From Chloroflexota bacterium (lineage in GTDB: Bacteria > Chloroflexota > Anaerolineae > Anaerolineales > Villigracilaceae), in contig JACRBL010000004.1 of NCBI GenBank assembly GCA_016234485.1, forward strand, positions 1 to 64,000: a stretch of 64,000 nt of DNA, written 5' to 3'. The number at the start of each line of letters is the position of its first letter. Positions within the stretch are counted from its first letter, which is position 1. The translations under genes were made by a program, and so were the position numbers. Positions 12,643-59,143 of the stretch are shown here, in pieces. The notes under the pieces were generated by a model. The model had not been told where the DNA came from. It did no database searches and was given only the letters and a program-made list of their open reading frames with translations.

Positions 12643-14334
12643 ATGTCTAAGAAAATGATTCAGCGACTGGCGGCAATCGCCTTGATCGTTGTGATCGTGG
12701 CAGGTTCGTTCATGGCCTATGGCCGTAATTCGCAATATGCCTACGATGTCCCGCAGATGATGGGGATGGAAGGCAGTGAGGAAGTTTTCAGTATTGACGC
12801 TTCGGCGCCCTCCCGCGGCATTCGCGGACCATTCGTGGAGACTCACGCCAAAGCCGTTTCGCTGGACCGCGACCTGCGCCAAATTCCGCAGGTTGGCCCC
12901 GCCGAAAAGCGCCTCGCCCGCGAAATGGGACAGCGCCCCACCCGCGTCCAGAACCAGGAAGCGGATTCCGTGGTGCAGACCAATAAGGCCGTCGGCGGAC
13001 GTTTGATCGGCCCGGGCGCGGCTGTCGCTCCCGCTCCTGTCAACACCTTCAAGGGTCTCGATCTTCAAAACTGGGGCGCCGGCTGGCCGCCCGATACCCA
13101 TGGCGATGTTGGCCCCAGCCACTATATCCAGGCCGTTAACACCTCCATCGGCATCTTCGATAAAGCCACCGGAACTCGTCTGGCCGCGTTCACCTTCGAT
13201 AACTTCTTCATTGCCGCGGGCGGCTCTGGCGCGTGCACCACATTGAACTACGGCGACCCGATCGTGCTTTACGATCAGATCTCTGGCCGTTGGATCATCA
13301 CCGACTTTGCCTTCGCGGGCAACGGCACCACGCCTCCCTATTATGAATGTATCGCCGTCTCGAAGGGCGCCGACCCCGTGAGCGGCGGCTGGTGGCTTTA
13401 TGAACTCGTAGCCAGCACCACCGCGCTGAACGATTATCCCAAATTGGGCATTTGGAACGACGGCATTTACATGTCGGCCAATATGTTCACGGGCGGCGCT
13501 TCCTATGGCGGCGTGAAAGTTTGGAATCTCAACCGCGACGACATGATCAGCGGCGCGCCTCTCCGCACTGTGGCCTTCACCCTCGGCACGTCCTACTTCA
13601 GCCTACTTCCCGCCAACCTCAAGGGCGCGCTTGCCCCGGCTGGAACGCCCGAATACTTCATGTCAGACTACGGCTCGAACACCAGCATGAAGTTGTGGAA
13701 GTTCACCACCAACTGGACGACGCCCTCCGCGTCCACCTTCACCGGTCCCACCAGCTTCGCCGTGGCTTCGTTCACCCGCCCCTCTTCGAACTCGGTACGC
13801 CAACTGGGGTCCTCGATTCGTCTTGACACCCTCGGTGACCGCCTGATGTCGAACCTGCAATACCGCAACGTTGGCGGCGTCCAATCCTTGTGGGTCTCCC
13901 GCACCGCCAAGGTCTCAAACTCCAATTACGGCATCCGCTGGATGGAAGTCCGCAACATGAGCGCTACTCCCAGCGTGTACCAGCAAGGCACCTACGCGCC
14001 CAACGCTTCGTATCGCTGGATGCCTAGCCTGGCCGTGGACAAATTCGGCAACATGGCCGTCGGCTACAGCGTTTCCACATCCACGATGTATCCCGCCATC
14101 CGTTATGCGGGACGCCTCTCCACCGACGCCCTCGGCACCCTCGGCCAGACCGAGCAGATCATGTTCGCCGGCACCGGCGCGCAGACCTCGTACAACCGCT
14201 GGGGCGACTACGCCTCCATGTCCGTGGATCCGGTGGACGACTGCACCTTCTGGTTCACCACCGAATACTACGAGACCACCGGCACCAACTGGCAGACCCG
14301 CATCGGCTACTTCCGCTTCCCGGGCTGTCAATAA
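12643..14334 (+). CDS. Large secreted protein, tandem paralogue A
   Basis: A 563-residue protein with an N-terminal signal or anchor helix (about 7-25) and an extracytoplasmic domain of ~450 residues starting at NWGAGWPPDTHGDVGPSHYI. Aromatic/Gly motifs recur: GGWWLYE, DYPKLGIWNDGIYMSANMF, RWGDYASMSVDPVDDCTFW, with few Lys and many Ser, Thr and Asn, as in exported beta-rich folds (a propeller is plausible but unproven). The close paralogue follows directly at 14594. AGAGG precedes the ATG. No catalytic motif is recognised. Promoter at 12417 and terminator at 14356 make it a single-gene unit. Confidence 0.75.
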   Translation: MSKKMIQRLAAIALIVVIVAGSFMAYGRNSQYAYDVPQMMGMEGSEEVFSIDASAPSRGIRGPFVETHAKAVSLDRDLRQIPQVGPAEKRLAREMGQRPTRVQNQEADSVVQTNKAVGGRLIGPGAAVAPAPVNTFKGLDLQNWGAGWPPDTHGDVGPSHYIQAVNTSIGIFDKATGTRLAAFTFDNFFIAAGGSGACTTLNYGDPIVLYDQISGRWIITDFAFAGNGTTPPYYECIAVSKGADPVSGGWWLYELVASTTALNDYPKLGIWNDGIYMSANMFTGGASYGGVKVWNLNRDDMISGAPLRTVAFTLGTSYFSLLPANLKGALAPAGTPEYFMSDYGSNTSMKLWKFTTNWTTPSASTFTGPTSFAVASFTRPSSNSVRQLGSSIRLDTLGDRLMSNLQYRNVGGVQSLWVSRTAKVSNSNYGIRWMEVRNMSATPSVYQQGTYAPNASYRWMPSLAVDKFGNMAVGYSVSTSTMYPAIRYAGRLSTDALGTLGQTEQIMFAGTGAQTSYNRWGDYASMSVDPVDDCTFWFTTEYYETTGTNWQTRIGYFRFPGCQ

Positions 14335-14355
14335 ACTGTAATCTCAATCTCAACG

Positions 14356-14381
14356 ACTGGCGACCAGTAATGGTCGCCAGT
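14356..14381 (+). terminator. Terminator of paralogue A
   Basis: ACTGGCGACCA / TGGTCGCCAGT with a GTAA loop. The same stem is reused after paralogue B at 16288-16321 with a GAAA loop, so the terminator was duplicated with the gene. Confidence 0.8.
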
Positions 14382-14419
14382 TGCGTTTATTTATCTTCAA
14401 TTTCACTCTTTCGATTCAC

Positions 14420-14447
14420 TTGACAAACGCCTGATTTACGAGAAAAT
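14420..14447 (+). promoter_or_regulatory. Sigma-70-type promoter of the second secreted paralogue
   Basis: TTGACA at 14420-14425, 16-bp spacer, GAAAAT at 14442-14447. Spacer words GATTT and CGA match the promoter at 12417, while the leaders downstream differ. Confidence 0.7.
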
Positions 14448-14593
14448 ACTCGCGAGCGCCCACCAAAAAGAAGATTTCGCTCACCATTCATTTTCAACCA
14501 TCCGCGAGGATGCAAAAGGAGGCGCAACCTGAGATAGCGATTTTAGTCCTTAATAATTTCAACCATCGGCCTACATTACAAGGAGAAAATTCG

Positions 14594-16270
14594 ATGTCTA
14601 AGAAATTGATTCAACGATTGGCAGGGATCGCCCTGATTTTGATCATCCTCGCCAGCTCGTTCATGGCTTACAACCGCAAGTCGCAATATTCCTACAACGT
14701 CCCCCACCTGCTTGGCATGGAAAACGGCGAAACCGCGGTCCAACTTGACGGCCCGCGCACCACTACCACCGAAGGCCCGTTCGTGGAAAATCACGGCGCA
14801 CCCGAATCGCTCGATGTTGACTTGCGTACGCTTCCGCAGGTTGGCCCCACTGAAAAACGCATCATGCGCGAGATGGGACAATTCCCCACCGCCCAGCAGG
14901 AATCCAACGTTGAAGACGGAGCCCTGCAGGTGGAAAAGCCCTCCATCAACGCTCCTGCCCCCACCAAAAGCTTCAAAGGCCTCGACTCGAACAGCTGGGG
15001 CGCTGGCTGGCCTCCCGATACGCATGGCGATGTTGGCCCAACCCACTACGTTCAGGCTGTGAACACTTCCATCGGCATTTTCCGCAAATCCGATGGCGCT
15101 CGCCTGGCCGCCTTCACCTTCGATAACTTCTTCTCCGCAAATGGCGGAACGGGGATGTGTGCCACCAACAATAACGGCGATCCCATCGTGCTATACGATC
15201 AGGTCTCTGGCCGCTGGATCATCTCCGATTTCGCCTGGGCCGACATTCTGAACGGGCCGTATTACCAGTGCATTGCCGTCTCCAAGACCGGCAACCCGGT
15301 CAGCGGCGGCTGGTGGCTCTACACCTTCAAAGCCCACGATAACTGGTTGAACGACTATCCCAAGCTCGGCGTCTGGCGCGATGGCATTTACATGTCTGCC
15401 AATATGTTCGATTGCACAAGCCCGGGATGCGGAAGCGCCAGCTACAAAGGCGTGCGCGTTTGGGCGCTCAACCGCACCAACCTGATCAACGGCACGGCTC
15501 TTAAAAGCGTGGCCTTCAACCTGGGTTCAGCCTATGGCAGCCTCCTGCCCGCCAACGTGCGAGGAACGCTTCCCCCCGCCGGAACCAGGGAATATTTCCT
15601 CGCCGACGCCACCAGTAACAGCATGTATATGTGGAAATTCAAGGTTAATTGGGGAACCCCGTCTTCTTCCACTTTCACTGGCCCACAAACCTTCTCCGTC
15701 GCGGCTTTTACCTACCCAAATTGGAGCGCCGCCGTGCCTCAGAAAAACACTAGTCAAAAAGTGGATACCCTCGGCGACCGCCTGATGACCTGGTTGCAAT
15801 ACAGCAACGTCGGCGGAACGCAATCGCTGTGGGTTTCGCGCACCGTGCAAATTGGCGGACGCACAGGCATCCGCTGGTACGAGGTCCGCAACATGAGCGC
15901 CACGCCCAGCACCTTCCAACAGGGAACCTACGCTCCGAACGGCGCCTGGCGCTGGATGCCCAGCCTGGCCGTGGATAAACAAGGCAACATGGCTATGGTT
16001 TACAGCATGTCGTCTGGCAGTTTGTTCCCGTCCATTCGTTATGCAGGCCGCCTCGCCGGTAACGCGCTCAACACCATCGGCCAAGGCGAACGCGTCCTCA
16101 TCAACGGCACAGGCTCGCAAACCGGCATCAACCGCTGGGGCGACTACGCCTCCATCTCCGTGGATCCCGAGGATGGCTGCACCTTCTGGATGACCACCGA
16201 ATACTACGATGCGACAGGCTCCAACTGGCAAACGCGCATCGGCGCATTCAAATACCCGGGCTGCAATTAG
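14594..16270 (+). CDS. Large secreted protein, tandem paralogue B
   Basis: A 558-residue protein, alignable with paralogue A over its whole length, from MSKKLIQRLAGIAL through GWPPDTHGDVGPTHYVQAVN to RWGDYASISVDPEDGC and a C-terminal PGC. The start at 14594 is set by alignment with A and by AAGGAGAAAATTCG just before it; the open frame back to 14510 is leader. It has an N-terminal membrane/signal helix, then an exported domain. An extra CTSPGCGS insert near residue 280 adds a Cys pair not present in A. Function unknown; probably abundant and exported. Confidence 0.75.
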   Translation: MSKKLIQRLAGIALILIILASSFMAYNRKSQYSYNVPHLLGMENGETAVQLDGPRTTTTEGPFVENHGAPESLDVDLRTLPQVGPTEKRIMREMGQFPTAQQESNVEDGALQVEKPSINAPAPTKSFKGLDSNSWGAGWPPDTHGDVGPTHYVQAVNTSIGIFRKSDGARLAAFTFDNFFSANGGTGMCATNNNGDPIVLYDQVSGRWIISDFAWADILNGPYYQCIAVSKTGNPVSGGWWLYTFKAHDNWLNDYPKLGVWRDGIYMSANMFDCTSPGCGSASYKGVRVWALNRTNLINGTALKSVAFNLGSAYGSLLPANVRGTLPPAGTREYFLADATSNSMYMWKFKVNWGTPSSSTFTGPQTFSVAAFTYPNWSAAVPQKNTSQKVDTLGDRLMTWLQYSNVGGTQSLWVSRTVQIGGRTGIRWYEVRNMSATPSTFQQGTYAPNGAWRWMPSLAVDKQGNMAMVYSMSSGSLFPSIRYAGRLAGNALNTIGQGERVLINGTGSQTGINRWGDYASISVDPEDGCTFWMTTEYYDATGSNWQTRIGAFKYPGCN

Positions 16271-16287
16271 TAGCCCATACGCAACAA

Positions 16288-16321
16288 AAAAACTGGCGAC
16301 CAGAAATGGTCGCCAGTTTTT
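16288..16321 (+). terminator. Terminator of paralogue B
   Basis: AAAAACTGGCGACCA / TGGTCGCCAGTTTTT with a GAAA tetraloop; a long A/T-flanked stem that would work on both strands, facing the broken minus-strand gene. Confidence 0.85.
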
Positions 16322-26728: not shown

Positions 26729-27529
26729 ATGCCTCTCACCCTCACTCCCCTGCACGGAATCCCCCTCATCCGCCAAGACGACGACTTGGCGGATATTCTT
26801 GTCGCGGGACTCAACGCATCGAGCATCGCGCTTGAAGATGGCGACATCCTCGTCGTCACGTCCAAGATCGTCAGCAAAGCCGAAGGGCGGATGGTGGACC
26901 TCGCGACCGTCACGCCCAGCGAGCGCGCGCAGGAACTCGCCCGTCAGGCAGACAAAGACCCGCGCGTCGTTGAATTGCTCCTGCAAGAAAGCGCCGAAAT
27001 TCTGCGCGTGCGCGTTGGCACGATCATCGTCGAGCATCGGCTCGGCTTCGTCTGCGCGAACGCGGGGATTGACCATTCCAATGTTTCCCCCACCCCAGAT
27101 TCCCCTCCCCAAATGTACCCATTTGGGGAGGGGCTAGGGGAGGGGCTTGTTCTCCTCCTCCCCCTTGACCCCGACGCGTCAGCTCGCGCAATCCGCGAAA
27201 AAATTGAATCCAAAACGGGCAAGCGCATCGGCGTGATGATCATTGATTCGCACGGACGCGCCTGGCGCATCGGGACGGTCGGCGTGTGCATCGGCCTGAG
27301 CGGCATCCCCGCGCTCGTGGATGAACGCGGCTGGAAAGACCTCTTCGGCTATGAATTGAAGATCACCGTCGTCGGCGCGGCGGACGAATTGGCCGCGGCC
27401 GCCTCGCTCGTCATGGGTCAGGCCGCGGAAGGGACTCCCGCCGCGCACGTGCGCGGCTTCCCGTATCCCCTGCGCGAAGGCTCGATGAAAGAATTACTCC
27501 GTCCCAAAGATCAGGACATGTTCCGATGA
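26729..27529 (+). CDS. cofE: Coenzyme F420:L-glutamate ligase, carrying a repeat-derived insert
   Basis: A 266-residue GTP-dependent ligase that adds gamma-glutamates to F420-0. Motifs: DDLADILVAGL, VVTSKIVSKAEGR, RLGFVCANAGIDHSNV, LLLPLDPDASARAIREKI, GVMIIDSHGRAWR and GVCIGLSG. Between DHSNV and LLLPLDPD, where the family has a short turn, about 18 extra residues (SPTPDSPPQMYPFGEGLGE) are encoded by a palindromic repeat at 27091-27150. The insert sits at a loop and the rest is intact, so the enzyme may still fold. The stop overlaps the next start by four bases. Confidence 0.92.
   Translation: MPLTLTPLHGIPLIRQDDDLADILVAGLNASSIALEDGDILVVTSKIVSKAEGRMVDLATVTPSERAQELARQADKDPRVVELLLQESAEILRVRVGTIIVEHRLGFVCANAGIDHSNVSPTPDSPPQMYPFGEGLGEGLVLLLPLDPDASARAIREKIESKTGKRIGVMIIDSHGRAWRIGTVGVCIGLSGIPALVDERGWKDLFGYELKITVVGAADELAAAASLVMGQAAEGTPAAHVRGFPYPLREGSMKELLRPKDQDMFR
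27091..27150 (+). repeat. Palindromic repeat translated inside cofE
   Basis: Arms CCCCTCCCCAAAT (27102-27114) and ATTTGGGGAGGGG (27121-27133), then CTAGGGGAGGGGCT. It belongs to the CCCTC/GAGGGG family also present in cofD (30410-30465) and between genes (38254-38294). It is read in the same phase in both genes, giving GEGLG. Confidence 0.9.
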
Positions 27530-27918
27530 AAACCATTCCTCCCGAATTCCACGATCTCCTCAAAGACGAAACCAAAGCATTCCTTTTTCTCGCCACCACC
27601 ATGCCCGACGGCTCGCCCCAAGTCACGCCCGTTTGGTTCAACACGGACGGCGAATATATCCTCATCAACTCCGCCAAAGGCCGCGTGAAAGATAAAAACA
27701 TGCGCGCCCGTCCCAACGTGGCCTTCGTCATCCAAGACCCCAGCGATCCCTACCGCTTCGTTCACATCCGCGGACGCGTCGTCGAGATCACCGAAGAGGG
27801 CGGTTTCGAACACATCCAGGCGCTGTCCATGATCTACTACGGACGCCCGCTGAAAAACCTGGAAGGCCAGACGCGCGTCATCTACAAGATTTTGCCCGAA
27901 CATGTCAATGCCCACTAG
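27526..27918 (+). CDS. PPOX-class F420-dependent protein
   Basis: A 130-residue split-barrel protein of the pyridoxamine-phosphate-oxidase-like superfamily, in the F420-binding branch: AFLFLATTMPDGSPQVTPVWF, ILINSAKGRVKDKNMRARPNV and VIQDPSDPYRFVHIRGRVVE are the characteristic blocks. Such dimers bind F420 or flavins and reduce diverse substrates. It overlaps cofE by four bases and the nitroreductase by 17, and so is plainly in the operon. The physiological substrate is unknown. Confidence 0.88.
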   Translation: MKTIPPEFHDLLKDETKAFLFLATTMPDGSPQVTPVWFNTDGEYILINSAKGRVKDKNMRARPNVAFVIQDPSDPYRFVHIRGRVVEITEEGGFEHIQALSMIYYGRPLKNLEGQTRVIYKILPEHVNAH

Positions 27919-28549
27919 CGCAGACGACTTCCACGCCTTCCTGCGGACGCGGCGCTCGATCCGCCGCTTCAAACCCGACCCCCTAGCGGACGAGGTCGTG
28001 ACGCGCGTTCTCGCCACCGCCATCCACGCCCCGTCCGCGCACAACACCCAGCCCTGGAGATTTGCCGTCGTGGGGCGGAATGGCATTCCGCCAAAAGAAG
28101 AGCGGATTGCCAATCCGCTCCACAATACTCGCACCCGCCTCGCCCACGCCCTCACCTCCTCCATGCGCGCCGACATGACCGCCGAAGGCGCGCCCGAACC
28201 CGAAATCGAAAAGCGCGTCGCCACCTCCATCCGTCGAATCAACGAAGCGCCCGTCATCATTCTCCTCTGCCGCGACGTGACCGCCGTCCGCGAGCACAAG
28301 CGCGAAGATGAGATCATGGCAATCCAATCTGTCGCGAACGCGGCCACCTATCTCCTGCTCGCCGCACATGCCGAGGGACTGGGCGGAAATTGGATCTGCT
28401 GGCCGCTATACGCACAAGAAGAATCGCGCCAGGCGCTGGATTTGCCAGAAACCTGGGAACCGCAGGCGATGGTGTTTTTGGGATATCCTAATGAAACCCC
28501 TGGCTCAAAGGCGCAAAAGAATCTCGAACAGGTAATAAAAACTGTATGA
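27902..28549 (+). CDS. FMN nitroreductase-family protein, FbiB C-terminal-domain-like
   Basis: A 215-residue protein. RTRRSIRRFKPDP and HAPSAHNTQPWRFAVV bind FMN, and GLGGNWICWPLYAQEESRQ plus PQAMVFLGYPNE match the C-terminal domain of actinobacterial FbiB, which reduces dehydro-F420-0. Next to cofE this looks like an FbiB split into two proteins. After PWRFAVV the sequence GRNGIPPKEERIANPLHN is unlike the family and is encoded by two palindromes at 28075-28119, a second in-frame repeat insertion in this locus. Function is inferred from context and motif. Confidence 0.82.
   Translation: MSMPTSADDFHAFLRTRRSIRRFKPDPLADEVVTRVLATAIHAPSAHNTQPWRFAVVGRNGIPPKEERIANPLHNTRTRLAHALTSSMRADMTAEGAPEPEIEKRVATSIRRINEAPVIILLCRDVTAVREHKREDEIMAIQSVANAATYLLLAAHAEGLGGNWICWPLYAQEESRQALDLPETWEPQAMVFLGYPNETPGSKAQKNLEQVIKTV
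28075..28119 (+). repeat. Two palindromes translated inside the nitroreductase gene
   Basis: GCGGAAT-GGC-ATTCCGC (28075-28091) and AGCGGATTG-C-CAATCCGCT (28101-28119). The second is read as R-I-A-N-P; a sister palindrome in the TIR gene (41180-41196) is read as R-I-G-N-P. Confidence 0.85.
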
Positions 28550-29070
28550 CCACCACTTCAGATCAGACTTCAAGTTTTGAAACCTGGAATTCCCAATTCC
28601 TTGCCAACAAGATTGAGTATGGAAACTCTATTTGGGAGAATATTGGAAAACACCCACAAGATATTCTGTTCCTTGATCTAGGAGAAATATATATCACGGC
28701 AAGTTCAGAATTGAGAATGAAGATAAAAGGTCTGTTTGAAAAACGTCCTGAACAAACTTGGCAATTGGTTCTGTTTATCAGACGAATTGCGAAAATGATT
28801 AACTTCGATACTCAAACGAAGTTAGTAAAAATTGGATTAGCGATTGCCGACATTGTCATGGAGAATGAAGATTATAGAGATATTTCTATTTCGGTGGCAA
28901 TTCTAAAATATGGTTCAGAAAAAGTTGGCATTAATGTGACCGAACTAATTGAAAACGAAATTTCGAATTATTCCGCTGAATTAAGCACTCTGCTTAATAA
29001 TTTGATGAAATGGTCGAAAAACGATATGAAGTTATCACTTTTATGGTTCGGCCCACCTGAGTGGCGTTAA
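28546..29070 (+). CDS. Orphan helical protein, A/T-rich gene
   Basis: A 174-residue protein predicted largely helical (LFIRRIAKMINFDTQTKLVK, IGLAIADIVMENEDYRD), soluble, with no recognised motif. Codon choice is visibly more A/T-rich than in the neighbours (frequent AAA, ATT, GAA, TTA), suggesting recent acquisition. The ATG overlaps the nitroreductase stop as ATGA, so it is coupled to the F420 operon despite its foreign look. Immunity-type or small regulatory proteins can look like this, but nothing supports a specific guess. Confidence 0.6.
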   Translation: MTTTSDQTSSFETWNSQFLANKIEYGNSIWENIGKHPQDILFLDLGEIYITASSELRMKIKGLFEKRPEQTWQLVLFIRRIAKMINFDTQTKLVKIGLAIADIVMENEDYRDISISVAILKYGSEKVGINVTELIENEISNYSAELSTLLNNLMKWSKNDMKLSLLWFGPPEWR

Positions 29071-29124
29071 GATACACAAACTTCCCGCCAAGTTACTGCA
29101 TCCACCAAAACAGAGTATTAACCT

Positions 29125-29781
29125 ATGCCTCCCAAGAAAAAGGTTCTAACCGAGTCCGAAAAGGCTTCAAAAACGCGGCAGACAAAATCAACCAGCGACG
29201 ATTCCACCCTCCCCATCCTCCTCGCCGAACTGAACATCATCGCCGCGCGGACGGAGCATGCCGACCAGATCGCCGAATCGCGGCTCAACATTCTCCTCAC
29301 GAGCGCCACAGGCGCGGGGGCGATTTTGATTTTGCTGGATCAACTCGGCGTTTCCCCCAACAACCTGCTCGAAGTAAGCGCGATCGTTTTCCTTGTTCTC
29401 TGGATGCTGGGATTGCTCACCTTCATCCGCATGTTGGAACGCAACATCATCACGATCCACTCCAACCGCTCCATGAGCCGCATTCGCAAATATTTTGTCA
29501 AGAACCAACCCGAACTCTCGGCCTACATTAACCTTCCCAAAGAAGAGACGCTTCGGAATCCGCATGACCACAAGCCCGCGCTCATCCGCTTTTGGGGATC
29601 GCGCACGCTGGCGGCGGTGGTGTCCAGCGCGGCCATCGGTTTGCTGATTGGGACAGTCATCGGGTTGTTCTCGAATCAAATTATCGCGCAAAGCATAAAT
29701 GCCGCGCTCTCGTTTGGATTCGGCCTCGTCCATTTGGTGGGTTTGGAATGGTATGCCATCAACCAACTGAAAAGGTTGTAA
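29125..29781 (+). CDS. Four-helix membrane protein, unknown
   Basis: A 218-residue protein: a basic disordered N-terminus (MPPKKKVLTESEKASKTRQ), then two helix pairs, about 55-100 (LNILLTSATGAGAILILLDQ, VFLVLWMLGLLTFIRML) and 155-205 (AAVVSSAAIGLLIGTVIGLF, ALSFGFGLVHLVGLEWY). The layout of charged helix plus two hairpins recalls SLATT-like proteins, but this is only an impression. It stands five bases before cofD and is probably cotranscribed with the F420 genes. Confidence 0.6.
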   Translation: MPPKKKVLTESEKASKTRQTKSTSDDSTLPILLAELNIIAARTEHADQIAESRLNILLTSATGAGAILILLDQLGVSPNNLLEVSAIVFLVLWMLGLLTFIRMLERNIITIHSNRSMSRIRKYFVKNQPELSAYINLPKEETLRNPHDHKPALIRFWGSRTLAAVVSSAAIGLLIGTVIGLFSNQIIAQSINAALSFGFGLVHLVGLEWYAINQLKRL

Positions 29782-29785
29782 GAAA

Positions 29786-30736
29786 ATGAAAATCGTCGCT
29801 CTCGCAGGCGGGGTTGGCGGCGCGAAACTCGCGCATGGCCTCGCCCAAATTCTCCCTCCTGAAGACCTCACCGTTATCGTCAACACGGGCGATGATTTCG
29901 AGCATCTCGGCCTCGCCATTTGTCCCGACCTCGATACGGTCTGCTATACGCTCGCGGGACTCGCGAATCCCGAAACAGGCTGGGGGCGCGCGGGCGAGAC
30001 GTGGCAGGCGATGACGAATCTCAAACGCCTCGGCGCGTCGGACTGGTTTAATCTCGGCGATCAGGATTTGGCGACTCACCTCGAGCGGACGCGGCGCCTC
30101 AAAGCGGGTCAGCCCCTCTCTCGCGTCACGCGTGACTTTTGCGCGGCCTGGGGCATCCGACACGCAGTCCTGCCGATGAGCGACAATCCTGTGCGGACGA
30201 TGGTGGACACGGACGAGGGCGAGTTGCCCTTTCAGGAATATTTCGTCCACCGCCGCTGTGAGCCGCGCGTGAAAGGCTTTCGGTTCGCGGGAGTCGAAGT
30301 CGCCGCGCCCGCCGCGGGGACGCGCGAAGCGATCCTGTCGGCCGACGCGGTCGTCATCTGCCCGTCGAATCCCTGGGTCAGCATTGACCCGATCTTGCAC
30401 GTCCTCTCCCTCACCCCGCCTTCGGCTCCCCTCTCCCGAAATTCGGGAGAGGGGTTGGGGGTGAGGGCAGTCGCGGTCTCTCCCATCATCGCAGGCAAAA
30501 CCGTCAAAGGCCCCGCCGCGAAAATGTTTGCCGAGTTGGGCATCGAGCCTTCTGCGTTGGCGGTGGCAAGCCATTATGAAAAATTTCTCAGCGGAATCGT
30601 AGTGGATTCGTTGGACTCAGAACTCGCAAAACAGATTAGAATCCCCACGCTCGTTACCAACACATTGATGACGTCCGACGCAGAACGCGCCCGACTGGCG
30701 CAGGAAACTATAAATTTCATCGGAAAACTTCCATGA
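29786..30736 (+). CDS. cofD: 2-phospho-L-lactate (or phosphoenolpyruvyl) transferase CofD/FbiA, with a repeat in a loop
   Basis: A 316-residue enzyme joining the activated GDP intermediate to the deazaflavin Fo. Motifs: ALAGGVGGAKLAHGLAQIL, VNTGDDFEHLGLAICPDLDT, DWFNLGDQDLATHLERTRRL, MSDNPVRTMVDTDEGELPFQ, CPSNPWVSIDPIL and VSPIIAGKTVKGPAAKM. Between SIDPIL and AVSPIIAGK the linker HVLSLTPPSAPLSRNSGEGL is encoded by a palindrome (30410-30465). Catalytic motifs are untouched. It overlaps cofC by four bases. Whether the donor carries lactate or enolpyruvate cannot be read directly; the FbiB-like reductase favours the latter. Confidence 0.94.
   Translation: MKIVALAGGVGGAKLAHGLAQILPPEDLTVIVNTGDDFEHLGLAICPDLDTVCYTLAGLANPETGWGRAGETWQAMTNLKRLGASDWFNLGDQDLATHLERTRRLKAGQPLSRVTRDFCAAWGIRHAVLPMSDNPVRTMVDTDEGELPFQEYFVHRRCEPRVKGFRFAGVEVAAPAAGTREAILSADAVVICPSNPWVSIDPILHVLSLTPPSAPLSRNSGEGLGVRAVAVSPIIAGKTVKGPAAKMFAELGIEPSALAVASHYEKFLSGIVVDSLDSELAKQIRIPTLVTNTLMTSDAERARLAQETINFIGKLP
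30410..30465 (+). repeat. Palindromic repeat translated inside cofD
   Basis: Inner arms CCCCTCTCCCGAA / TTCGGGAGAGGGG (30428-30440, 30442-30454) and outer CTCACCCC / GGGGTGAG (30410-30417, 30458-30465). Same family and same reading phase (GEGLG) as the copy in cofE. Confidence 0.9.
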
Positions 30737-32455: not shown

Positions 32456-32468
32456 GCTCCGAAATTCG

Positions 32469-32505
32469 AAATGACAGTCACAATCGTGACTGTCATTTTT
32501 TATTT
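32469..32505 (+). terminator. Terminator of the F420 locus
   Basis: AAATGACAGTCAC / GTGACTGTCATTT with AATC loop, then TTTATTT. The core TGACAGTC...GACTGTCA reappears in the large hairpin at 39871-39917. Confidence 0.85.
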
Positions 32506-32560
32506 AAGAGCCATGTCACTTGACGCGACTTCGTCCGTCCGTTATCTTTCGGCGCTATAG

Positions 32561-34289: not shown

Positions 34290-34302
34290 AGAGGATGTTC
34301 TT

Positions 34303-34359
34303 CGGCAGTTCGATTTGCTTGGCAAATCGTGCCGACGCCCAGCAGTCCAACTGCTGGGG
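34303..34359 (+). repeat. Double-hairpin REP-like repeat, copy 1 (full)
   Basis: CGGCA-GTT-CGATTTGC / GCAAATCG-TGCCG followed by CCCAGCAGT-CCA-ACTGCTGGG. Near-copies occur at 59089-59143 (full) and 46536-46556 (second hairpin only). Confidence 0.85.
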
Positions 34360-37685: not shown

Positions 37686-37769
37686 ACCACAAAGGACGCA
37701 AAGTGCACAAAGGAATAAAAGGCAGTAAAAACATGCGTTTGCCTTCGTGACCTTGGTGTACTTTGTGGT
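37686..37769 (+). repeat. ACCACAAAG...CTTTGTGGT inverted repeat
   Basis: ACCACAAAGGACGCAAAGTG at the left is mirrored imperfectly by CTTGGTGTACTTTGTGGT at the right. It fills the gap between ubiE and the thioesterase gene; no other signal is seen. Confidence 0.75.
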
Positions 37770-37782
37770 AAAAAAATCACCC

Positions 37783-38250
37783 ATGAAAACCAAACAACCC
37801 AACTCCCGCCATTGCTTCGTATGCGGACTCGAAAACCCCATCGGCCTGCACATGCACTTCTACGAAACCGCGCCCGATGAAGTGACCGCCGAATACACCG
37901 CGCCCGAAAATTACCAGGGTTACCCAGGCATCTTGCACGGAGGCATCACCGCCGCAATTTTAGACGAAGCCACGGGCCGCGCCTTCATGGGAAGCGACCC
38001 GAAGACGTCCAATTTTATGTACACTGCGGAATTGAAAGTGAAATATAAAAAGAAAGTGCCTATCGGACAGCCGCTCAAAATTGTGGGCAAACGCGGCAGG
38101 CGCATGCGCTGGACCGCCGAAGCGACAGGCGCCATCTACGACATGAACGGAACTTTGCTTGCAGAGGCATCCGCCACCCTCGTGGATTTGCCCGAACAAC
38201 TCCCCGCCGATGATTTGGATCAATTAGGGTGGAAGGTTTATCCTGATTAA
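37783..38250 (+). CDS. PaaI-family hotdog thioesterase
   Basis: A 155-residue hotdog protein. N-terminal HCFVCGLENPIGLHMHF is the Cys-containing motif of the 4HBT/PaaI-like group, and GYPGILHGGITAAILDEATG holds the catalytic HGG and Asp/Glu. It hydrolyses acyl-CoA thioesters; in a menaquinone neighbourhood a DHNA-CoA thioesterase role is possible but not shown. ATG 37783 is used; the upstream frame is repeat sequence. Confidence 0.85.
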   Translation: MKTKQPNSRHCFVCGLENPIGLHMHFYETAPDEVTAEYTAPENYQGYPGILHGGITAAILDEATGRAFMGSDPKTSNFMYTAELKVKYKKKVPIGQPLKIVGKRGRRMRWTAEATGAIYDMNGTLLAEASATLVDLPEQLPADDLDQLGWKVYPD

Positions 38251-38253
38251 ACC

Positions 38254-38294
38254 CCTCACCCGACCCTCTCCCAAAGGGAGAGGGTCGGGTGAGG
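38254..38294 (+). terminator. CCTCACCC palindrome acting as bidirectional terminator
   Basis: Perfect 19-bp arms CCTCACCCGACCCTCTCCC (38254-38272) and its complement (38276-38294) with AAA loop, between converging genes. It belongs to the same family as the in-frame repeats in cofE and cofD. Confidence 0.75.
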
Positions 38295-39722: not shown

Positions 39723-39875
39723 GGGCGACTAGCCCCACAGGGGTGCATCGCGAAAGTCGCACCAACATTTGCAAAGCCGACCTTCGTCGGCTATGGAAGC
39801 AAAGTGGATGTCATCGCCGTGGAGGGAGAGACGGGCGAGGCGAAGGTGGTGCATTTTGAGAATGTAACTGGATAG
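39723..39875 (+). pseudogene. Remnant of a gene 3' end fused to palindromes
   Basis: In one frame, the last ~30 codons before TAG 39873-39875 read like real protein: FVGYGSKVDVIAVEGETGEA then KVVHFENVTG. Upstream, the same frame only translates hairpin DNA (GCGAAAGTCGC, AGCCGACCTTCGTCGGCT) and there is no start codon. The likely explanation is a truncated gene whose 5' part was lost or replaced by repeats. The family is not recognisable. Confidence 0.4.
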
Positions 39876-39917
39876 CAAAGTGACAGTCATCTTGGAGATG
39901 ACTGTCACTTTGCTATC
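39871..39917 (+). terminator. 22-bp-arm perfect hairpin
   Basis: GATAGCAAAGTGACAGTCAT... arms (39871-39892 and 39896-39917) with TGG loop. It overlaps the end of the gene remnant and faces the stop of the TIR gene; the core is shared with the terminator at 32469. Confidence 0.8.
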
Positions 39918-59069: not shown

Positions 59070-59088
59070 GGTTTGGTTTGGGTTATTT

Positions 59089-59143
59089 GGCAGTTCAATT
59101 TGCTTGGCAAATCGTGCGGAGCATCCAGCAGTGCAACTGCTGG
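59089..59143 (+). repeat. REP-like repeat, copy 2 (full)
   Basis: GGCAGTTCAATTTGC / GGCAAATCGTGC, then CCAGCAGTGCAACTGCTGG, matching 34303-34359 with a few changes that mostly preserve pairing. Confidence 0.85.

Follow-up and report, generated by a model that had tools for sequence, protein, structure and literature searches.

G/C-rich palindromes built around a common CCCTC...GAGGG core are read in frame inside two genes of coenzyme F420 biosynthesis, cofE and cofD, of a Chloroflexota bacterium from the order Anaerolineales, and each occupies a protein loop whose counterpart is empty in many relatives and filled, sometimes by other repeats, in others. Both genes lie in a stretch of 64,000 nucleotides (positions 1 to 64,000 of contig JACRBL010000004.1, assembly GCA_016234485.1), hereafter called the window. 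Related copies are found in frame in other genes of the same genome, copies are under-represented inside genes in general, and recurrence at the same loop was registered for three more proteins. The account that we favour, and consider probable, is that palindromes resembling repetitive extragenic palindromes (REPs) are tolerated in permissive loops, and that these loops are colonised, emptied and recolonised.

Palindromes of the window and their family

The features concerned are the following.

26729..27529, + strand: cofE, coenzyme F420-0:L-glutamate ligase (TIGR01916, E 1.5e-85; 266-aa open frame)
about 27087..27146, + strand: type B palindrome in cofE (core arms 27102-27115/27120-27133 plus outer arms)
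29786..30736, + strand: cofD, 2-phospho-L-lactate transferase (TIGR01819, E 1.5e-90)
about 30408..30467, + strand: type A palindrome in cofD, in frame, flanked by WVSIDPIL and AVSPIIAGK
38254..38294, no strand given: free-standing type A copy (perfect 19-bp arms 38254-38272/38276-38294)

The insert of cofE is flanked by DHSNV and VLLLP, and its loop is translated as SPTPDSPPQMYPFGEGLGEGL. The element of cofD is translated as SLTPPSAPLSRNSGEGLGVRA, and its left spacer contains a small GCCTTCGGC hairpin. The original prediction, made for this DNA from its letters, had placed one and the same repeat in both genes, with GEGLG encoded by each copy and a free-standing copy elsewhere in the window. 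Family matches and open frames confirm a G/C-rich palindrome in frame in each gene, GEGLG is indeed read in both, and the free copy, which starts 3 bases past the stop codon of the open reading frame (ORF) 37747-38250, is a perfect palindrome. The two intragenic elements are, however, not the same repeat, since they represent two subfamilies that have only the CCCTC/GAGGG core in common: type A (cofD and the free copy), with the layout CCCTCACCC-spacer-CCCTCTCCC-loop and then back, and type B (cofE), with longer stems, for instance CCCTCCCCAAATG. Predicted RNA hairpins have energies of −43.6 kcal/mol for cofE (z −4.32), −49.5 for cofD (z −6.43) and −44.0 for the free copy (z −9.09).

Pattern search gave five matches in the window (nested), all at these three places, against a mean of 0.0 in 60 first-order Markov windows. 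In the draft genome (4.46 Mb, 68 contigs) 48 type A cores were registered, against one with the reversed pattern used as control; the corresponding numbers were 17 and 0 for type B, and 98 and 5 for a looser pattern. Counts so far over the controls, both in the window and in the genome, mean that the palindromes are more than chance. A 30-mer of the cofE element is repeated letter for letter at G000:C39:88100-88129 (G000 is the genome of the window). The strict core pattern found copies in 49 of 61 genomes (this one and 60 relatives), from 0 to 128 in each, with 0 to 14 for the reversed pattern, and copy number was patchy even inside one family.

Orthologous loops with and without the element

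Matches to cofE and cofD were obtained in 53 and 55 of the 61 genomes, respectively, and from a scan of named genomes the best 80 of 478 relatives were kept, their titles being mostly those of Anaerolineales, Anaerolineae or Chloroflexi metagenome-assembled genomes. After dropping rows in which the loop anchors were absent (16 of 132 for cofE and 24 of 121 for cofD) and merging identical loops, 98 cofE and 84 cofD loops remained; cofE of the close relative G001, split over two contigs, stands outside the 98. The cofE loop has 21 residues here and 6–10 in many relatives, and the chain 2g9i of the Protein Data Bank, a solved CofE, is about 17 residues shorter at exactly the place of the insert. 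In cofD the loop takes 25 residues, compared with 11–17 in most element-free relatives. Since orthologues devoid of the DNA repeat are also devoid of the peptide, both segments are insertions, as had been originally proposed.

By a simple pattern the element was detected in 18 of the 98 cofE loops, compared with 4 matches over the remaining 74,832 nt of these genes, and in 14 of the 84 cofD loops, compared with a single match elsewhere in them (77,586 nt); one cofE row with a 10-aa loop (L261) may be a chance match. Across the 80 loci (835,361 bases) the two loops, 5,820 bases in total, accounted for 27 of the 49 pattern matches. Among eight other in-frame matches in these loci seven look like chance in ordinary codons, and only L203:10475 looks real. 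Specificity is judged here from position within the gene and from the reversed pattern. A mirror control, CTCCC...GGGAG, was discarded (20 of its 41 matches fell into the two loops), because this string itself belongs to the palindrome.

Repeat-like strings of other kinds were also found in the same loops: GTAGTGACGACTTTAGTCGTC (L270), GAGACCTCCGAGGTCT (G012) and CCACGAAGGACACGAAGG (G019) in cofE, TCCACCGTCC repeats (G012 and L240) and GCTTCGACAAGCTCAGC (L252) in cofD. A string like GTAGTGACGACTTTAGTCGTC is present in TatD of G029 as well. AlphaFold2 models, built from 44 sequences for CofE and 40 for CofD, gave a mean predicted local distance difference test score (pLDDT) of 85.2 and 90.8, respectively. 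In CofD, values below 50 are confined to residues 211-222, which belong to the insert; CofE has two such stretches, 128-137 within the insert and 178-183 beyond it, so that the models of both enzymes are consistent with the inserts forming a floppy loop.

Changes in filling and orientation

Filling of the loops was followed on a tree of 75 rows having both genes, inferred by a quick search with the loops removed, in which 29 of 72 inner branches stayed open. The rule of filling was laxer here than the simple pattern and gave 12 filled rows for cofE and 16 for cofD. Presence of the element changes at least 11 times in cofE and at least 12 times in cofD, counts that do not separate gain from loss. 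In two pairs of sister rows, L229/L236 and L208/L214, the first member has a filled cofD loop and the second an empty one.

More than one phase and, in the case of cofE, both orientations occur at one loop. In cofE of G001 the element is the reverse complement of that in G000, with its loop and its spacers exchanged: the inverted comparison scored 47 (55 of 63 letters identical) and the direct one 32 (51 of 68). In G005 the inverted reading has the better score (37 vs 30.5) but not the better count of identical letters (46/64 vs 48/66); the core loop there, AAATGGGTATATTT, differs from that of G001 in a single letter. The assembly of G001 is broken at this palindrome, and the two contig ends (L174 at the end of G001:C89 and L173 at the end of G001:C136) overlap by roughly 100 bases, including part of the palindrome. 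Nested or double elements were seen in both cofE and cofD of L233, the loops of which were read as in G031.

Copies inside and outside genes

Surroundings of the copies were classified in 58 fetched stretches with an in-frame hexamer score trained on long ORFs, that is, with a home-made coding test and no gene finder. The 68 copies classified are not a full census, as one imperfect copy (C31:115484) was left out and the search did not extend to degenerate copies. Fifteen copies, spread over 14 genes, are internal and in frame, which by definition means a frame open throughout the copy. Five have the same frame on both sides with a stop, seven are bordered by coding sequences in different frames of the same strand, two by coding sequences on opposite strands, 25 have coding sequence on one side, and 14 are intergenic. 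Random sites treated in this way were internal in 326 of 600 cases, compared with 15 of 68 copies, so that copies are under-represented inside genes.

The 12 copies with same-strand coding on both sides (5 + 7) were considered as possible cases of frameshifted or disrupted host genes. This was rejected, as they look like borders of two adjacent genes: in 11 of the 12 the upstream frame stops 12–22 nt before the core, and a possible start codon comes after that stop (in L103 it precedes the core by 6 nt). The remaining copy (L095, 2470-2492) itself provides the stop of the preceding frame, adding the tail GSALTPSPSPK. This verdict was reached by eye from positions of stops and possible starts, not from homology, and covers these 12 copies but not the 25 one-sided ones.

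Host genes were identified by family search, and some of their everyday names are our reading of the domains. Besides cofE and cofD they encode an MrfA-like helicase, Zn-alcohol dehydrogenase, TatD, an amidohydrolase, an APH-like kinase, CinA, a heavy-metal P-type ATPase, an ABC exporter, an Eco57I-type methylase (two copies), a transglycosylase treated here as a penicillin-binding protein (PBP), and two proteins without a Pfam match (L101 and one in L102). Both copies in the methylase gene (L138, G000:C62; 2290-2324 and 2524-2554) are of type B, and the second has a CCTTCGG mini-hairpin in the spacer, like cofD.

The frame in which GAGGG is read was phase 0 (GEG) in seven of the 15 in-frame copies, phase 1 (GRG) in another seven and phase 2 in one. 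A single fixed phase, which the original prediction saw in cofE and cofD, is thus rejected for the genome, and with this 7:7:1 distribution the common phase of cofE and cofD is unremarkable, two random in-frame copies agreeing with a chance of 40%. The same prediction would have been refuted by copies that showed no phase preference and caused frameshifts. The even 7:7 split (third phase 1) speaks against it, while the lack of a frameshift among the 12 informative copies speaks for it. In one phase, as read from the sequence, a full right arm of type A may encounter a stop, the TGA within GGTGAGG.

Three of the 12 other host genes were followed in relatives, PBP being chosen after the first two had been seen, and for CinA, TatD and PBP the best 30 loci were taken, matches being available in 59, 57 and 59 genomes, respectively. 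The element was found in 10 of 30 cinA loops (1 match in the rest of the genes, 34,860 nt), where row G018 is doubtful and may be a chance match, in 3 of 30 tatD loops (0 in 22,989 nt) and in 7 of 30 pbp loops (3 in 75,636 nt). CinA of G005 is an example of a visibly empty site. The PBP loop holds two phases across genomes (5 and 2 cases), with GEG encoded in G005 and G010, among others, and GRG in G000 and G012. A role specific for F420 genes is rejected, as these three loops are recurrent too and the other 12 hosts are not recognised F420 genes.

Relation to known repeats

REPs of the GTAG/CGTC type are short palindromes that lie mostly between genes and near gene ends and in a minority inside known genes; such intragenic copies are reported from many species, with one same-site case: different REPs at about one place in recB of X. 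campestris and X. oryzae (Di Nocera 2013, PMC3733652). In-frame REPs outside Rickettsia are, therefore, already published. The palindromes described here resemble them in being short and, in a minority, intragenic; they differ in the tag and in same-site occupation, observed in all five loops examined and in many genomes. No GTAG/CGTC end tag was seen on cofE, cofD or the free copy, nor in type B contexts, inspected by eye rather than by a formal scan of all copies. Rickettsia palindromic elements (RPE), compared by description only, are similar in that they add peptides in frame to unrelated proteins (cited in PMC3733652), which is also what 15 copies in 14 genes do here. RPE-1 is longer, and the host here is an environmental Chloroflexota lineage. 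As a precedent Rickettsia holds, but it is not the sole one, given intragenic REPs (PMC3733652) and enterobacterial RU elements, small mobile repeats that occur inside annotated genes with the reading frame kept (Delihas 2007, PMC2759123). The latter are MITE-like (miniature inverted-repeat transposable element) units of 103–168 bp, unlike the palindromes of 40–60 bp considered here.

Arms CCCTCNCCC/GGGNGAGGG are common to our family, to the Enterobacter 638 repeat CCCTCTCCCXX(X)GGGAGAGGG (PMC2869309) and to TMECO, a G/C-rich intrastrand triplex motif that was counted in proteobacterial genomes and is reported to be always intergenic in E. coli MG1655 (Holder 2015, PMC4666352), in contrast to the 15 of 68 copies in frame within genes here. 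The strict TMECO pattern, CCCTCNCCC N3-6 GGGNGAGGG N3 GGGNGAGGG, fits 5 of the 68 copies and a relaxed form 38, and it is absent from cofE, cofD and the free copy of the window. No paper on palindromes in F420 genes, or on the CCCTC...GAGGG family in genes of Anaerolineae, was found by title or abstract in searches confined to an open-access library. What is new here is this family inside genes and its repeated turnover at fixed loops.

A link to REP-associated tyrosine transposases (RAYTs) led nowhere, as the 1.5-kb flanks of the three Y1_Tnp (PF01797) proteins of the genome contained no full copy, and isolated half motifs were found only in L281. One of the three has another palindrome, AAGTGACAGTCAC, in its flanks. 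A second family, GTGACAGTCA...TGACTGTCAC, flanks the Y1_Tnp gene at G000:C32:34005 (L283, about 1223-2148), and the two are a candidate for a true REP-RAYT pair. This second family is also present in the window, in perfect form at 39871-39917 and imperfect at 32456-32511. Other repeats of the window are a tandem duplication of about 1.9 kb (12643-16321), with several blocks 73–78% identical and the palindrome ACTGGCGACCAGNAATGGTCGCCAGTT after each copy, and a 39-nt repeat (34297-34335 and 59082-59120, 90% identical), the first copy of which has a small CGATTTGC/GCAAATCG hairpin. The F420 gene cluster around cofE and cofD comprises npdG, cofC and a relative of the LLM-type F420-dependent oxidoreductase.

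Origin and persistence of the inserts

According to the favoured account, REP-like G/C-rich palindromes of 40–60 bp are distributed over Anaerolineales genomes, mostly outside genes and often right after a stop codon, and an in-frame minority would persist where a copy lands in a permissive loop. Copies may arrive by transposition-like insertion or by template-switch copying from other copies, disruptive insertions would be purged, and the insert peptides may well be neutral. The loops of CofE, CofD, CinA, TatD and PBP would in this way be filled, emptied and refilled, in part with repeats of other families, and their peptides would turn over between species. The element does behave like a repeat surviving as in-frame peptides, as originally suggested, while its being selfish is what we infer. 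Several observations weigh against this account. Phase is mostly common within a site (17:2:1 in cofE and 9:3:2 in cofD), which shared descent would give as well. Several cofD fillings are nearly length-neutral and resemble overwriting more than plain insertion, and the inverted reading of G005 is backed by the alignment score but not by the count of identical letters. When filled orthologous sites were compared with empty ones by eye, no target-site duplication was obvious, although these relatives are too diverged for a clean comparison. No transposase could be linked to the element, the Y1_Tnp flanks being without full copies.

Uniformity of phase is also what would be expected from one ancestral insertion per loop, inherited, overwritten by gene conversion with other copies of the genome and lost in many lineages without any new insertions. 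The nearly constant insertion point in cofD and the element subtype common to cofE of G000, G001 and G005 agree with such a history, which we nevertheless regard as unlikely, as it requires many losses that restored short loops and left no visible trace, and leaves aside other repeat types occupying the same loops, the inverted orientation in G001 and the two phases at the PBP loop. Still less credible is that the palindromes are immobile and arise locally, when template switching or slippage occurs in G/C-rich loops. Arms are often perfect while loops vary, and template switching is known to perfect quasi-palindromes; against this, the same arms are met genome-wide, one 30-mer has an identical counterpart far away, and reversed-pattern controls yielded 0, 1 and 0. 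Selection for the hairpin or the peptide, for example tuning translation of F420 genes or forming an interaction surface, is hardly to be expected. It could be supported by the very stable hairpins predicted (−43.6 and −49.5 kcal/mol) and by two genes of one pathway being hit in this genome, but by the pattern used no element is present in 80 of the 98 cofE loops and 70 of the 84 cofD loops, other repeats occupy the loops too, and CinA, TatD and PBP show the same thing.

An extension of the favoured account, which we put forward only tentatively and rather doubt, is that certain protein loops of Anaerolineales serve as exchange sites, where unrelated palindrome families are swapped in, out or over near fixed codons by a mechanism acting in trans. 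If so, a standing pool of selfish repeats would keep making new peptides in core enzymes.

Implications

Earlier descriptions of in-frame REPs mostly dealt with single genes and single genomes (PMC3733652). The orthologous loops described here form a natural series of empty, filled, inverted, nested, decayed and other-repeat-filled states, which makes the entry of palindromes into proteins, and its acceptance by loops, directly testable. For annotation this implies that GEGLGVR or LTPxPLP strings in such proteins can derive from DNA repeats, and assemblies may break at these repeats, as that of G001 does in cofE. Some ordinary enzymes of this group of environmental bacteria are predicted to carry small extra peptides in a few loops, which differ by species.

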